A stretch of DNA of 39,354 nt, from positions 1-39,354 of the forward strand of contig WFXF01000074.1 in the NCBI GenBank assembly GCA_015490755.1, read 5' to 3'. The stretch is from Gammaproteobacteria bacterium (lineage in GTDB: Bacteria > Pseudomonadota > Gammaproteobacteria > JAADGQ01). The notes beneath the pieces were generated by a model. The model was not told where the DNA came from, did not search any database, and was given only the letters and a program-made list of their open reading frames with translations. Position numbers and translations under genes: made by a program. Positions 4,356 to 39,354 of this stretch are shown in pieces. How positions within the stretch are numbered: the stretch's first letter is position 1; the number at the start of each line of letters is the position of its first letter.

Positions 4356-4360
4356 AACAA

Positions 4361-4394
4361 AAAAGCCCTGCTGTTTCCAGCAGGGCTTTTTTTG
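4361..4394. terminator. Bidirectional rho-independent terminator between pilU and groL
   Basis: A perfect 13-base stem (4361-4373 with 4378-4390) has a 4-base loop, AAAA on the left and a T run on the right. It can therefore end transcription of pilU on plus and of groSL on minus. Confidence 0.92.
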
Positions 4395-22305: not shown

Positions 22306-24492
22306 CTACTGCAAGCTATATGATTCTTTTAAAATTTTGGGTGTGACAAAAATGAGCAGCTCATCTTTTGTATCAACACGTTGAGTTCGGCGAAAAAGTG
22401 CACCAAGATATGGAATATCACCCAGGAGTGGTACTTGGCTTTTATCATTACGTTTTACCTGTTCATAAACACCACCGAGCACCACGGTATCACCATTTTC
22501 GATCAGTACTTGAGTGGTGACCTCTTTTGTGTCAATACTGGGAATTCCCTGAAACATCTGGCCGACACGATCTTTGTTGACTGTGATGTCGAGCAAAACT
22601 CTATCATCAGGAGTCACTTGTGGAGTAACTTTCAGGCTTAAAACTGCCTTTTTGAAAGCAACAGCGGGCACATTGCTTGCGCCAGATGCCGGTGTGATAT
22701 AAGGGATTTCTGTGCCTTGCTCAATCGTTGCTTCACGTTGATTTGATGTAATCACCCGTGGACTGGAGACAACTTCACCTCGGTTTTCTGCCTGCATTGC
22801 AGAAAGTTCCAGGTCCAATAGATAATCAGACCCGAGAATAGCCAAGGCTATTTGACCCGTAGGTGCCGTGACAGGTAAATTAACATTCAGTCTGTCAGAA
22901 AGACCTGGAAGTGCAACAGGGAATGGGCTTGATGAGGTTTGTAAATTAGTAGTAGCACTGTTAACAATGGTGTTTGTACCATTGGCAGATGCGGTTGTAG
23001 CAAAAACAGTACCTCCTTGCTGACGAGTCCCTGTTGCACCAAAACGAATGCCAAGGTCCTTGCTAAAACCATCGCTGGCAATAACGATGCGTGATTCAAT
23101 TAATACCTGGCGTACCGGAATATCCAGTTGAGAAATAAGTCGCCTTAACTCAGTCAGTTTTTCGGGGGTATCAAGTACCAGTAAAGTATTGGTGCGGATA
23201 TCAACACTGACAGAACCACGGGGTGAAAGTAAAGCGCTCTCTTTACCTTTAATCAGATCAGCCATATCCTGTGCTTTGGCGTAGTTAACCTGGATTAATT
23301 CTGATTGAAGGGCGGTGACTTCTTCAGCTTGCTTTTTGGCTTCCAGCTCCTGTTTTTCCTGCGCAATCACTTCACTACTAGGGGCGATCATGATGACGTT
23401 ACCATTTTCCCGCATGGCGAGCCCGTGTGATTTCAAAATGATTTCCAGAGCTTGATCCCAAGGTACATTTTTTAAGCGAAGTGTAATATTTCCTTTGACG
23501 GCATCAGCAGCAACAATATTGAGGCCTGAAAATTCAGCAATAATGTCAAGCACTGAACGAATTTCAATGTCTTGAAAGTTGAGGTCCAGTTTCTCCCCAC
23601 TATATTTTGCCTCTCGTTTTTCAGCCATCTCTTGTTGCTCTTGAGTCATGGGCATAACTTCAATAGTAAAGATGTCATCAGATTGATAAGCCAGGTATTC
23701 ACTATTTGATTGAGTGCTGATATGCATTTGAACGTTACTGCCTTGTTGACGCGTATCAATCGTATGTACCGGAGTGGCAAAATCGATGACATCAAGGCGT
23801 TGCTCCAGTTTTTTTGGTACCTCTGTCCCTATGAAGTCAATAACAAGTTTGTTACCCTTTTTCTGCATGTTGACGGGTGTTTTTTTGCTGGATAGAAAAA
23901 CTGTTACGCGACCTTCTCCTGATGTACCACGATGAAAGTCAATATTGCGAATAGTGTTTTCGTGAATGCTGGCAGTGAGTGCTGTTCCTGAACTATTGCT
24001 CAGATGCGGAGCGATTGTGTGTGTGGTTGTTACGCTGCCAGTTTTGCCACCGAGAGTGATATAGGCACGGTTATCGCGTACTGAGGTTTCATAAGGAACC
24101 ATTTCTGACAAATTGATTACAACACGTGTGCGTCCTTTGGATTCAACTGCATGAACATAACGTACAACGCCAGAGTTAATTTTTTTCTTTTTTCTTTTCA
24201 GGTTACTGTGAGTGTCTGGAAAATCCAGGGCAATACGTGCAGGGTTGTCAATCGTAAAACTGAGGGGCTCTGATGTCGGGCGCGATAGTACCAGCTCAAT
24301 TTGTACTCTGTTATTGGATAAATTGGATACATTGATATTTTCCAGAGTGTTTGTTGTTGCACTGGCAGAAAAGGCAGTGCCAGAAGCTGATAAAAATATC
24401 AGTAATGTCATTAGAAAAAATTTATTCTGCCATCCGTTTAAATTTGCCAATTTCATAAAAGCATACATACCTGTTTTGTTAATTGAAGCCAT
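22306..24492 (-). CDS. pilQ: Type IV pilus secretin PilQ
   Basis: A 728-residue outer-membrane secretin through which the pilus passes. Order: signal peptide (hydrophobic core 24-42), two AMIN peptidoglycan-binding domains (about 48-140 and 180-275), an STN domain (about 297-375), a NolW/N1 domain (about 398-465) and the C-terminal secretin domain (about 480-722, with V-S-S-P-R-V-I-T, E-Q-G-T-E-I-P-Y and V-P-L-L-G-D-I-P-Y-L-G-A-L-F). A GGTG element supports the start at 24492. In-frame ATGs at 24471 and 24456 would shorten the N-region and still leave a normal signal peptide. It is last in pilMNOPQ; the next gene downstream is the Ig-like lipoprotein rather than aroK. Confidence 0.97.
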   Translation of the reverse strand: MASINKTGMYAFMKLANLNGWQNKFFLMTLLIFLSASGTAFSASATTNTLENINVSNLSNNRVQIELVLSRPTSEPLSFTIDNPARIALDFPDTHSNLKRKKKKINSGVVRYVHAVESKGRTRVVINLSEMVPYETSVRDNRAYITLGGKTGSVTTTHTIAPHLSNSSGTALTASIHENTIRNIDFHRGTSGEGRVTVFLSSKKTPVNMQKKGNKLVIDFIGTEVPKKLEQRLDVIDFATPVHTIDTRQQGSNVQMHISTQSNSEYLAYQSDDIFTIEVMPMTQEQQEMAEKREAKYSGEKLDLNFQDIEIRSVLDIIAEFSGLNIVAADAVKGNITLRLKNVPWDQALEIILKSHGLAMRENGNVIMIAPSSEVIAQEKQELEAKKQAEEVTALQSELIQVNYAKAQDMADLIKGKESALLSPRGSVSVDIRTNTLLVLDTPEKLTELRRLISQLDIPVRQVLIESRIVIASDGFSKDLGIRFGATGTRQQGGTVFATTASANGTNTIVNSATTNLQTSSSPFPVALPGLSDRLNVNLPVTAPTGQIALAILGSDYLLDLELSAMQAENRGEVVSSPRVITSNQREATIEQGTEIPYITPASGASNVPAVAFKKAVLSLKVTPQVTPDDRVLLDITVNKDRVGQMFQGIPSIDTKEVTTQVLIENGDTVVLGGVYEQVKRNDKSQVPLLGDIPYLGALFRRTQRVDTKDELLIFVTPKILKESYSLQ

Positions 24493-35024: not shown

Positions 35025-35129
35025 GTGTGTATAGTACCTGAAATGGTCGTTTTTTGTGATTTTAGTTTTTTCGCCAATATCCGCTACCGTTCATGATAAA
35101 CACTAAAAAAGTAACTCAAGGGAATGAAA

Positions 35130-38100
35130 ATGAAGAATAATCTGTTAATCTTTCAACGTTACAAGTTTGCCGCCACTTTAACGGGAATACTGTTGTCATG
35201 TCTATTGGCGACCGCTGTTTGGGCCAAGGGGGAGGCGACCAACATATATTCCTCGCCAAGTAATGCGGAAGCTCAGGCGCAATATACAGGTGTTATAGAT
35301 AATAATGTCTATCGCTGGGGGCAGGGAAGCGATGGTCAGGGTACGGATGGTAATCGACTGATTGATGGGTTCTCGCTGGATGGTGGTACAACACGCTACG
35401 ACTATCAGAGCGTTGCAGGTGTGGTGAGAATTATTCGTTCGAATAGCGATACGCCCTGTGGATTATTTGCTGAAACAACCGGAGTTGCTTTTAACTATCA
35501 GCCTGACTTTCCGGGCGATTCCGATGGTAAAAATTGTGATATGGCAAAGGTGATGGCAGGTCGAGTCATAAATGTTGGTGCACTGGATCTATTTAACAAT
35601 GTTGGAGGCGAAGCTAAAAATATAGAGCGAGTGGATTTTATTTTTAATAGCGGGATTACTGTTACAGCAGCCTCTTTAAATGTTGCAGGTCATGTTGTGA
35701 CTGAAAAGTCAGGTAATAATAGCGTCAAAATTGCCGCCATAACTGCTCTTGATGGATCGGGAAACCCTTCTGTATACGGTGATTTATTAACCATTTATGC
35801 TGAGGGCGATGCGAGCTGTTTAGCCCCCACAAATAATATCTGCTATGGAACCCCGGGAGGCAATAGAGAGTATGAGTTTCTTCATACCGCTGATGCAGCG
35901 GTTCCATTAGAAAAAGTGGGTGGCAATACCGAACCGCTGGGATTGGCGTTTGTTTCACAGGCTGATCTGGGTTTGGCGCAAGGTACAACCTATTATGGCT
36001 TCTCCTATTTTGCACCGGATGTTGATCCGGTGAACAATAATCTTCATGACCTGACTGATCCAGGCACTTTTCCTTCAGATACGAGCAAAGCTGGGGTTGG
36101 CCTGGGGGATGCAGATATATTTGGTGGCACTGCCGGATATTTTGTTCTGAACAGCTTGATGAAAAATATTTCAGGAGATGTCGTTGATGCATCTGCGAAT
36201 GGTATTGAAAATGTGACGGTGAGCTTGTATCGAAATGATGGTAGCGATGCAAGTGGGTATGATGCGGCAGATACATTATTGGAATCCGTTGTAACAAATG
36301 CTGGTGGTGTCTATAGTTTTTCTCGTGTGATGCCAGATATCTATATCATTCGGGTGGATAGTAGTGATAGCGATTTGACCACTGATGGTTATACAACGAA
36401 TACAGAAAACCTGATGGTGACCGTTGCCAATTCTGACCTTGTCAGTCAGCGCTTTAACTTTGTGTTACCGCAAATTACTGGCAGCGTATTTAGTGATGCA
36501 GACAGCGACAATATCAGGGATGCAGGCGAAGGTGTTTCAGGTGTCACGGTTCGTTTATACAGTGACCAAAATATGACCAGTCAGGTGGGTACTGACAAGG
36601 TGACCGATGGGGATGGTCTGTTTACTTTTAGCGATGTGGTTAATGGTGCGTACTTCCTGTTCGTGGATCAAGGCAGTAGCCAGGGTTTGAACGGGCTTGT
36701 AACCAGTACCGCCAACCCACTGTCAGTGATGGTGCAAAACGGTATTAATATAACAACCAGTTTTCCGTTTGTGGCAGTCCCACCTACAACCTATTCGTTA
36801 ATGGGCACTGTATTTCAAGATGAGGATGGTGATGGTCTGTTAGCGGGTAGTGGAGAATCCGGTATTAGTGGCGTGACTGTGACTCTTTTCGACAATAACA
36901 TGGCTCAAAAAGGAACGACTGATACGGCTTCTGATGGTACTTATACCTTCAATAGCGTCGTAGCGGGTGACTATAGCGTGCAGGTCGATTCTACGGATGG
37001 GCCGGCCGGATATGCAATCGCTCAATCTGACAACCCGGAAACAATCACTCTTGGTGCGAACACAACAGTCAACTTTCCATTTGGTGTTGATACCGATGGT
37101 GATGCCATTCCTGATGGCAATGATATTGATGATGATAACGATGGAATTCTTGACAGCGTTGAGCAAAGTGGAGGCAATGATGTTGATACCGATGGTGACG
37201 GTATTTATGACCGACTGGATTTAGACAGTGACAACGACGGTATTTTGGACGCTGTTGAGTCCGGTGCCAGTGATATGACAGCAGTGACCGTTGCAAATGG
37301 CCGTGTCACTGGCGCAGTGGGAGCCAATGGCTTGCCTGATTCGGTTGAGAGTGGCAGCGAAACTGGTAACGTTGGTTATGCATTGCTTGATACAGATGGC
37401 GATACAAAATCAGATTTTCGTGATTTAGATTCGGATAATGATGGAATCTCTGATGCCGTTGAAGGTGGCAGTACAGACCCTGATGGTAATGGTTATATTG
37501 GTAGTGGCGATCCTCTGACACTGGCCAGTGGTGACGTAAATAGCCATGGTATTCCTTTGCTTGCTGGCAGCGCTGTAGTTTTAACTCCACCGAATACAGA
37601 TGGTGATTCGGTTCCCGATTACCGCGATCTGGACAGTGATAATGATGGTATTATTGATGTTGTCGAGGCCGGTGGCACAGATGCAGAACCCAACGGGTAT
37701 ATTGGCTCGGGTTCTCCTCCAGCAATTAATGAGTTGGGAGTTCCCCTTGTAGGGTTGCTTGTTGTTGCTACGGACACAGATGGCGATGGTTTGCCAGATT
37801 TTCTGGAGCTGGATTCTGATAATGATGGCATGAAAGACATTGTTGAAGCAGGTTATGTCGATAGTAATGGGGATGGTCGGGTCGATAACTTTTCCGATGC
37901 AGACGGTGATGGAGCGGGTAATCCGCTTGGGTTTTCCGCAGCAGCAGATTTTCCTGATATTGATTTCGATGGTATTCCAGATTATCAAGATAAAGTGAGT
38001 CAGCCGCCACGCTTGGAAACAGGGCTGGATGGTATGGGGTGTACACTTGGTGACAATCGTTCCGTTGACCCCATATTTCCACTGCTTATTTTATTTGCAT

Positions 38101-39200
38101 CCATATATCTGTTGCGCGGACGCTTTTTGAAAGGACGTGATAAAAAAAAAGAAGGGAGGTTAGCTGCCAAAAGACTCAGCGTGATGTTTGTCGGAATGGT
38201 ATTAATATTTCCCGTAACACTCTCTTCAGCCGATGAAGAAACAGAGTTTCAAAGCCGTTGGTATGGTGGTTTGGGAATTGGTATTTCTGAATTAGAGCCA
38301 GACCCTAACAGCACTTCATTTACTGTTGATGAAACGCGTAGCAAAGGCGGCAAACTGTTTCTGGGTTATGATTTGTTTAAACGCTTAAGCATTGAAGCCT
38401 ATTATTCAGATGTTGGTGAAGCAGAGATTGGCTCAACTTATCCTGGTATTTCTGACGGCACGATCGGTTATAAAGACTACGGTATCAGCGCTCTGTATTA
38501 TGTTTTTAAACAGCATGAAGCTCACGAAGGTTTTGGCTTGTTCGGTCGAGTGGGCTTGGGGCGAATGAACAATGATACCGAGCTGCCTTATGAGCGGCTC
38601 AATGATAATCATGCCATGCTTGGTGCAGGCTTGGAGTACGCTTTTGACAATGGTTTTGCTCTGCGCGCGGAGCTTGACTATTACGATACAGATTCCCGTT
38701 TGTATGCGCTGAGCTTTATGAAGCGTTTTGGCAGTAATAAACAGGAAAAACTTGTGCCCGAACCTCAATTAGAGCCAGAACCCATTGTAGCTGTAGTTCC
38801 AGTAGCACCTGTTGTTATGGAACCAGAGATCGTGCCAGCACCACCCATCGTGGAAGCGGTGACAATAGGTCAGCTTGGTATCGTCTACTTTGATACAGAC
38901 TCTTTCGCTCTCACCGCAACAGAGCGTGCCACTCTTGATGACGTGGCTGCTGAATTATTGCGTGTGCCAGAAGCTAGGATTGAAGTACTGGGACACACCG
39001 ACAGTCGAGGCTCAAATGCTTATAATCATCTTCTGTCAGAAAGGCGGGCGTATGCGGCTATCGACTACCTGAACAGTAAAGGAATTTCATATAGCCGCAT
39101 GAGAGCCCGAGCTCTTGGTGAAGATAGCCCCGTTGCGAGTAATCAAAATGGAGAGGGGCGTAGACTGAACCGTCGAGTGGAGTTTCGAGTGATCGAATAA
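35130..39200 (+). CDS. SdrD/thrombospondin-repeat surface protein fused to an OmpA-family protein
   Basis: 1356 residues. The ATG at 35130 is preferred to 35124 because AAGGG (35118-35122) is 7 bases from it. Order: signal peptide to about 32; an uncharacterised beta-rich region (33-345); three SdrD/Cna-B-like domains (about 349-448, 449-554, 555-653); thrombospondin type 3 Asp repeats (about 654-956). Next is a CTERM-like end: Cys971, V-D-P at 979-981, hydrophobic 982-995, then R-G-R. Basic loop 996-1015 follows. A second signal-like helix is at about 1016-1031 with S-S-A at 1032-1034. An 8-strand-type beta-barrel (about 1042-1205), a Pro/Glu linker and an OmpA peptidoglycan-binding domain (1246-1356, with G-H-T-D-S-R-G and L-S-E-R-R-A) end it. 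Each half looks like a whole exported protein. Role: probably surface display plus an outer-membrane anchor; function unknown. Confidence 0.9.
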   Translation: MKNNLLIFQRYKFAATLTGILLSCLLATAVWAKGEATNIYSSPSNAEAQAQYTGVIDNNVYRWGQGSDGQGTDGNRLIDGFSLDGGTTRYDYQSVAGVVRIIRSNSDTPCGLFAETTGVAFNYQPDFPGDSDGKNCDMAKVMAGRVINVGALDLFNNVGGEAKNIERVDFIFNSGITVTAASLNVAGHVVTEKSGNNSVKIAAITALDGSGNPSVYGDLLTIYAEGDASCLAPTNNICYGTPGGNREYEFLHTADAAVPLEKVGGNTEPLGLAFVSQADLGLAQGTTYYGFSYFAPDVDPVNNNLHDLTDPGTFPSDTSKAGVGLGDADIFGGTAGYFVLNSLMKNISGDVVDASANGIENVTVSLYRNDGSDASGYDAADTLLESVVTNAGGVYSFSRVMPDIYIIRVDSSDSDLTTDGYTTNTENLMVTVANSDLVSQRFNFVLPQITGSVFSDADSDNIRDAGEGVSGVTVRLYSDQNMTSQVGTDKVTDGDGLFTFSDVVNGAYFLFVDQGSSQGLNGLVTSTANPLSVMVQNGINITTSFPFVAVPPTTYSLMGTVFQDEDGDGLLAGSGESGISGVTVTLFDNNMAQKGTTDTASDGTYTFNSVVAGDYSVQVDSTDGPAGYAIAQSDNPETITLGANTTVNFPFGVDTDGDAIPDGNDIDDDNDGILDSVEQSGGNDVDTDGDGIYDRLDLDSDNDGILDAVESGASDMTAVTVANGRVTGAVGANGLPDSVESGSETGNVGYALLDTDGDTKSDFRDLDSDNDGISDAVEGGSTDPDGNGYIGSGDPLTLASGDVNSHGIPLLAGSAVVLTPPNTDGDSVPDYRDLDSDNDGIIDVVEAGGTDAEPNGYIGSGSPPAINELGVPLVGLLVVATDTDGDGLPDFLELDSDNDGMKDIVEAGYVDSNGDGRVDNFSDADGDGAGNPLGFSAAADFPDIDFDGIPDYQDKVSQPPRLETGLDGMGCTLGDNRSVDPIFPLLILFASIYLLRGRFLKGRDKKKEGRLAAKRLSVMFVGMVLIFPVTLSSADEETEFQSRWYGGLGIGISELEPDPNSTSFTVDETRSKGGKLFLGYDLFKRLSIEAYYSDVGEAEIGSTYPGISDGTIGYKDYGISALYYVFKQHEAHEGFGLFGRVGLGRMNNDTELPYERLNDNHAMLGAGLEYAFDNGFALRAELDYYDTDSRLYALSFMKRFGSNKQEKLVPEPQLEPEPIVAVVPVAPVVMEPEIVPAPPIVEAVTIGQLGIVYFDTDSFALTATERATLDDVAAELLRVPEARIEVLGHTDSRGSNAYNHLLSERRAYAAIDYLNSKGISYSRMRARALGEDSPVASNQNGEGRRLNRRVEFRVIE
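38142..38159 (+). other. A9 homopolymer at the fusion junction, followed by GGGAGG
   Basis: Nine A residues (38142-38150) encode three lysines in the basic loop between the two halves of the fused protein. With eight A residues the frame would end at TAG seven codons after the Asp codon at 38139. A GGGAGG element (38154-38159) follows. A9 runs are known sites of transcriptional slippage, of phase variation and of sequencing error. Confidence 0.6.
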
Positions 39201-39217
39201 ATAAGGAACGTTCACGA

Positions 39218-39353
39218 AATAACTTCTGCACTCTGGCTTGCCCTTTTACTCCGGCTCAAACGATCTCAATCGTTACATAGGCCAGCAGCTATGCGCCTCT
39301 TGAGATCGTTTGAGCCGAAGCAAAATTTCTACGCAATAGTTGCAGAAGTTATT
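39218..39353. repeat. Nested inverted repeat, MITE- or IS-end-like
   Basis: Outer arms AATAACTTCTGCA (39218-39230) and its perfect complement (39341-39353) enclose 18-base arms at 39252-39269 and 39300-39317, also perfect. These in turn enclose CATAG (39276-39280) and CTATG (39289-39293) around an 8-base loop. No reading frame of note lies inside. The element could fold into a long hairpin, and may end transcription of the preceding gene. It reaches within one base of the window edge, so a longer element cannot be excluded. Confidence 0.75.
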
Positions 39354-39354
39354 C

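Follow-up and report, generated by a model that had tools for sequence, protein, structure and literature searches.

What kind of element closes this stretch of DNA? The window, by which we mean the whole 39,354-nt stretch analysed here (contig WFXF01000074.1 of a Gammaproteobacteria bacterium), ends in a nested inverted repeat for which a first-pass annotation had considered a MITE-like or REP-like element or the end of an insertion sequence (IS).

A nested inverted repeat at the end of a contig

The annotated arms are all present and perfect: 13 bp at 39218-39230 and 39341-39353, 18 bp at 39252-39269 and 39300-39317, and 5 bp at 39276-39280 and 39289-39293. Together they exceed chance expectation, as no stem of at least 13 bp appeared in 2000 dinucleotide shuffles of the 136-nt region. 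Of the four perfect stems of at least 12 bp (maximum span 160) in the whole window, two are formed by these arms; five whole-window shuffles gave 0, 0, 0, 0 and 2 such stems. The window's other two perfect stems lie at 4359-4392 (15 bp, 4-base loop) and 22911-23039 (12 bp, 105-base spacer). What changes is the reading of the three levels. The 13-bp outer arm makes up just the inner half of a terminal repeat of 26 bp, which begins at 39205; the right partner of this repeat extends about 12 bases beyond the window end. The 18-bp and 5-bp arms are parts of a single imperfect stem of 37 nt. Folding of the region, proposed earlier as a check, gave strong structures for both the window minus strand (-73.9, z -9.4) and the plus strand (-57.7, z -6.6). 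The features are as follows.

35124..39200, plus strand: upstream gene, 1358 aa, with SdrD_B and OmpA domains
39202..39204, no strand: left target-site trinucleotide TAA, placed by the flanking 3-mers of sister copies
39205..39230, plus strand: left terminal inverted repeat GGAACGTTCACGAAATAACTTCTGCA, its first 21 bases near-identical on ISAzo13-family IS
39223..39347, minus strand: conserved hairpin core, matched by covariance model R2 with 83.9 bits
39244..39280, plus strand: left arm of the internal imperfect stem, 81% complementary
39289..39325, plus strand: right arm of the internal imperfect stem, partner of 39244..39280
39341..39354, minus strand: right terminal inverted repeat, cut by the contig end with about 12 bases missing

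The hairpin core thus overlaps the inner portion of both terminal repeats. In the 1358-aa protein encoded upstream, the OmpA domain is C-terminal and accompanied by SdrD_B-like domains.

The repeat is one copy of a dispersed MITE

The genome that contains the window (2.63 Mb in 94 contigs, 99.67% complete) gave 66 matches to a query of 155 bases from the window edge, a count in which one place can appear again as a reverse-palindrome match. These resolve into 23 long assembled copies, the window's among them, whose median pairwise identity is 0.970, so that the nested repeat is far from being single-copy. Ten of the long copies are half or cut copies at contig ends; identical ones pair up, which puts the number of physical copies at an estimated 18 or so. 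The window ends where assembly contig C74 ends, and the suspicion that this contig had broken at a repeat was borne out by the ten contig ends of the assembly that fall within copies. The element, GGAACGTTCACGAAATAACTTCTGCA ... TGCAGAAGTTATTCCGTGCACGTTCC, is 159 bp long (hereafter ~160 bp), and the window copy measures 162 bp owing to an extra AGC. This AGC duplication and a 139-nt perfect overlap are shared only with the end of contig C67 (L014), which therefore probably carries the missing right end.

The terminal repeats, GGAACGTKCACGRAATAACTTCTGCA, are 26 bp long and differ from each other at two positions. Allowing up to three mismatches, their pattern was found at 57 places in the same genome and the reversed-pattern control at none. 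Target duplications, which the first-pass annotation had proposed to look for, are present at the sister copies and measure 3 bp: identical 3-mers, mostly TTA or TAA, flank 11 of the 13 long copies of this genome for which both flanks are available, while the putative flanks of the window copy itself differ (TAA on the left, AAG on the right at the C67 end). When elements of all sizes were collected by the pattern, flanking 3-mers were equal in 13 of 18 cases in this genome, where shuffles averaged 6.3 and reached the observed count in 2 of 10000 runs, and in 52 of 65 cases in other genomes, where they averaged 26.7 and reached it in 0 of 10000.

None of 22 copies in the own genome lies inside an ORF of at least 150 aa. 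Five 59-bp derivatives with the same ends are also present in this genome; examples at C31:16376-16434, C61:918-976 and C86:23432-23490 retain both ends and have most of the interior deleted, perhaps through slippage at TTCT repeats. In a copy on contig C44 (L029 2070-2228) the apical half has become a near-perfect palindrome, likely by a template-switch event.

The end pattern is carried by Leucothrix, Thiotrichaceae, methanotroph, Cellvibrionaceae, Ectothiorhodospiraceae and other gammaproteobacterial records as well as one Burkholderiales genome, in at least 95 stretches in all, and the terminal repeat occurs with at most one mismatch in 9 of 369 sampled genomes of the class. Searches with the repeat gave no exact match in viral contigs, one weak 24-nt match in phages and six weak matches in plasmids. 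Among 64 paired elements, 44 scored at least 23 against the window interior in local alignments (typical background 14 to 18), and the remainder combine the same ends with different interiors. A second interior type, unlike the hairpin core and bounded by the same ends (GGCGCYCGGATTTAGTCCGT ... GAAGACGGGCTGAAGCCGGGATGC), was seen in SZUA-152, Ectothiorhodospiraceae and others (L075, L082, L086, L095, L098, L109 and L130).

The nested repeat is one copy of a non-autonomous MITE: it is short and non-coding, has dispersed near-identical copies and terminal inverted repeats, and its sister copies are flanked by target duplications. The first-pass suggestion of a MITE-like element was therefore right. 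Its REP-like alternative does not fit an element of ~160 bp with target duplications, given that REP/BIME sequences are palindromes of 20-40 bp in the accessible text of PMC3733652. Nor is the repeat the end of a full IS, as there is no linked transposase and transposase-bearing ISAzo13 relatives were found in other genomes only. The element starts at 39205, 4 nt past the stop codon of the 35124-39200 gene, and this position and the strong fold would suit a transcription terminator or REP/BIME-like element serving that gene. We consider this extremely improbable, since copies with target duplications are scattered over many sites instead of being conserved behind this one gene, the element is longer than REPs, and a search for intrinsic terminators (GC stem followed by a T run) returned no site in the sister copy L012.

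Ends shared with insertion sequences of the ISAzo13 family

Because 3-bp target duplications are associated with ISAzo13, we searched for its transposase (PF07592) in 24 genomes, namely the own genome, one of the same genus and 22 carrying the ends. Seven of the 24 contain PF07592; the own genome is not one of them and also gave no ISAzo13 transposase in a search with the G271 protein. Across the 369 sampled class genomes, PF07592 was found in 22.

Several of these transposase genes lie between ends like those of our element. In a Bathymodiolus japonicus symbiont (G054), such ends flank the gene on both sides at two loci (L166, L170), each with TTA on either side. The two-contig genome G271 carries four ISAzo13 copies with GGAACGAGCACGAAATAACTTGAGCA / GGAATGAGCACGAAATAACTTGAGCA ends, three of them (L190, L205, L216) flanked by TTA on either side and the fourth (L213) by TTA and TAA. 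The L213 copy (727-2461) is 1735 bp long and contains an open frame of 547 aa; its sisters are 1.33 kb. The 404-aa L190 transposase matches the ISAzo13 model NF033519 with 479 bits (NCBIfam cut-off 200), and the element interrupts an IS4-like gene whose flanks, joined minus one TTA, form a single open frame. The terminal repeats are thus common to our element and five transposase-carrying ISAzo13 IS (L190, L205, L216, L166 and L170), and across the ten ends of five IS, the pattern GG-N10-AAATAA keeps its GG and every A of AAATAA without change. Two further ISAzo13 elements (L181, L182) have related ends and are flanked by TAA on either side. In genome G308 an ISAzo13 remnant (L193) yielded one end, the left, and this matches the ends of the elements there (GGGCCGCGGAAAA...). 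Many other ISAzo13 loci, such as L159, L184 and L185, show no such ends in the stretch examined. The ends and TTA/TAA duplications of the sister copies are accordingly those of ISAzo13-family IS in other genomes.

Descent from an IS5-family element of the IS1031/IS427 type has to be weighed here, because a 3-bp duplication of TNA type would suit this group, which has a TNA target, and the own genome has one IS5-like gene (on C34). That gene, the only one recovered there with PF01609 and PF13586, lacks the terminal repeat. The repeat is likewise absent from all three PF13586 loci found in the 24 genomes (L178-L180), whereas several ISAzo13 loci carry it. IS5 parentage, which we judge very improbable, is largely refuted by the ISAzo13 ends.

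The search for a matching transposase, as proposed in the first-pass annotation, thus succeeded in part: an ISAzo13-family transposase with the same ends exists in other genomes, and none was found in the own genome, either alone or linked to the copies there. Open frames at 14 single-ended hits of the terminal repeat, read by eye for an autonomous element, included no visible transposase. One widely spaced pair of repeats (L074) was rejected as an autonomous element because it encloses other genes. Since the own genome yielded no ISAzo13 transposase, the element is either orphaned there or its transposase is missing from the draft; it is a non-autonomous and apparently orphaned MITE of ISAzo13 type. 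It resembles ISAzo13 IS (NF033519 / PF07592) in its GG-N10-AAATAACTT terminal repeats and 3-bp TTA/TAA duplications, and differs in being ~160 bp long without a transposase, compared with ~1.3 kb with one.

In the mechanism that we propose, an ISAzo13-family DDE transposase acting in trans would recognise the GG-N10-AAATAACTT ends, move the element together with the conserved hairpin core of ~120 nt between them, insert it at TNA-like targets and thereby duplicate 3 bp; the own genome would since have lost the transposase, or the contig carrying it would be absent from the draft. A MITE that has been mobilised by ISAzo13 and carries a conserved hairpin core is, in our view, very probably the best explanation overall, with mobilisation deduced from the shared ends and duplications.

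A hairpin core that recurs with different ends

Conserved boxes appear in the interior when 24 related elements of the own genus, S013_42, methanotrophs, Thiotrichaceae and Leucothrix are aligned. R1, a covariance model built on the full element, matched 21 of the 369 class genomes at E <=1e-4, with at most 8 candidates scored per genome. R2, which models only the core, had hits at E <=1e-5 in 34 of 398 genomes from the phylum, and 28 of these lie outside the class. In favour of the ISAzo13 explanation, five genomes are shared between the 21 with R1 matches and the 22 with PF07592 (expected 1.25, p 0.005); against it, just two of the nine genomes with the terminal repeat at one mismatch or fewer have a PF07592 match (G182, G202).

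Several elements matched by R1 have quite different ends. The clearest non-ISAzo13-like case is in G271, one of the five overlapping genomes, where the core elements have TACTTCGCGCGG ends with TA flanks; as these differ from the ends of the ISAzo13 copies of that genome, the two are not partners. Core elements also end in GGCGATTTCTGTCAAATGACAT in genome G219 and in GGAAGTTCCAAGCAATGATTTTACC in a Leucothrix MAG that carries the window type as well. Clear terminal repeats (score 13.5 or more) bound 14 of the 19 R2 loci inspected, and most of these 14 begin with GG and have an AAATAA-like stretch at the ISAzo13 position; the other five loci have no clear ends or only weak ones. Among 44 ISAzo13 loci, R2 matched a single core (L165 1259-1370), which lies some 480 bases past the PF07592 match in a decayed remnant. 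An imperfect hairpin core of ~120 nt therefore recurs inside and outside the class while its terminal repeats differ.

One core used as a query had no match in plasmids, and another had none in E. coli genomes. Rfam 15 gave no family match in the window at 39000-39354, and in nine relatives its hits (miRNA-type hairpins, a tRNA and a MicX fragment) all stayed under the gathering score. We found no published description of the core in the literature searched, which was thin on subscription journals and preprints.

Structure and possible function of the core

For structural comparisons we used 25 cores (A2), excluding decayed, truncated and partial ones, and a diverse subset of 22 (A3) that leaves out Leuco100, Leuco064b and G220. 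The core stems covary: in A3, 91.8% of cells pair, both sides have changed in 29 of 36 pairs, and the covariation score is 0.627, compared with 0.262 for shuffled and at most 0.180 for slid alignments. The consensus of A3 folds at -27.5 kcal/mol on the reverse strand and at -13.9 kcal/mol on the other, and because the three omitted cores fold better forward, A3 figures lean to the reverse strand. This omission does not affect the count over A2, in which 22 of 25 cores are more stable on one strand (the window minus strand) with RNA and DNA parameters alike. Wobble pairs, in turn, give conflicting counts on strand preference: G.U outnumbers A.C by 15 to 3 for the reverse strand, with 16 strand-neutral pairs, and structures derived from the forward strand favour forward G.U over A.C by 28 to 8 (A2) and by 39 to 27 (A1).

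Nearly all of 12 reverse-strand folds share an apical 2x2 loop in which GC stands opposite AA, beside GCAUAG/CUAUGU, although its conservation is inflated because the cores were picked by their apical signature. Closer to the base, part of the methanotroph, G219, G271 and G308 types have a second loop with GC opposite AA and a loop of GA type, both of which are absent from the window's own subtype.

These features can be read in two ways. The core may have no function, its conservation and covariation arising from common descent and from correction of the palindrome's arms by template switching, a reading that we regard as an even chance. Such correction seems to happen, judging by the near-perfect apical palindrome of the C44 copy, and the mixed G.U counts and inflated apical conservation point the same way. 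So does the orientation of the core relative to neighbouring genes, which were called by a simple longest-ORF rule: over 116 elements (22 of the 31 rows of one set and 94 of the 116 of the other), 58 versus 45 genes read in (p 0.24), with 25 versus 18 in tandem contexts (p 0.36), and the lack of bias counts against a simple read-through RNA. Two of the 116 elements lie inside ORFs of at least 150 aa. On the other hand, correction should erase the asymmetric apical loop, which instead reappears in elements whose ends differ and also beyond the class, and for 22 of 25 cores one strand gives the better fold.

Alternatively, and more tentatively, the core could act in cis as a structured RNA or single-stranded DNA hairpin that aids the persistence or movement of the element. 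Extended to the whole family, a similarly speculative proposal is that the core might be an undescribed, widespread cis-acting RNA/ssDNA module of ISAzo13-type MITEs, selected for its asymmetric loops (the apical one almost everywhere, the second in part of the family), with ends swapped to track different transposases. We consider a conserved palindrome without function somewhat more likely than a cis-acting core.

Discussion

The ERIC/IRU sequences of enterobacteria, like our element, are imperfect palindromes that occur between genes in many copies. They are also MITE-like and measure 127 bp in the accessible text of PMC2759123. The element described here differs from them in its sequence, its 3-bp duplications, its ISAzo13-type ends and the different ends found on a shared core, and the one core queried had no counterpart in E. 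coli genomes. A further comparison is offered by a sulfur bacterium, Candidatus Thiomargarita nelsonii, for which the accessible text of PMC4853749 reports abundant MITEs and PFAM07592 among the transposases of the genome. The repeat types given there set these MITEs apart from ours, with 10-bp direct and 19-bp inverted repeats for the hupL MITE and TATA-type ends for the dsrA MITE; that text names no parent IS family from ISfinder. ISAzo13 now provides a likely parent for a MITE group without a described parent in the literature searched.

The element departs from the usual MITE pattern through its conserved core, which is found between ends of more than one kind. MITEs are usually thought to be conserved at their ends, which are read by the transposase, and free to drift inside. 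Against this expectation, the interior recurs in and outside the class while the ends differ, which suggests that the interior hairpin may itself do something, as it is found in distant bacteria despite changed ends. The role of a MITE interior thereby becomes directly testable. If the core is indeed selected and its ends exchanged, these elements would be modular mobile hairpins with swappable ends.
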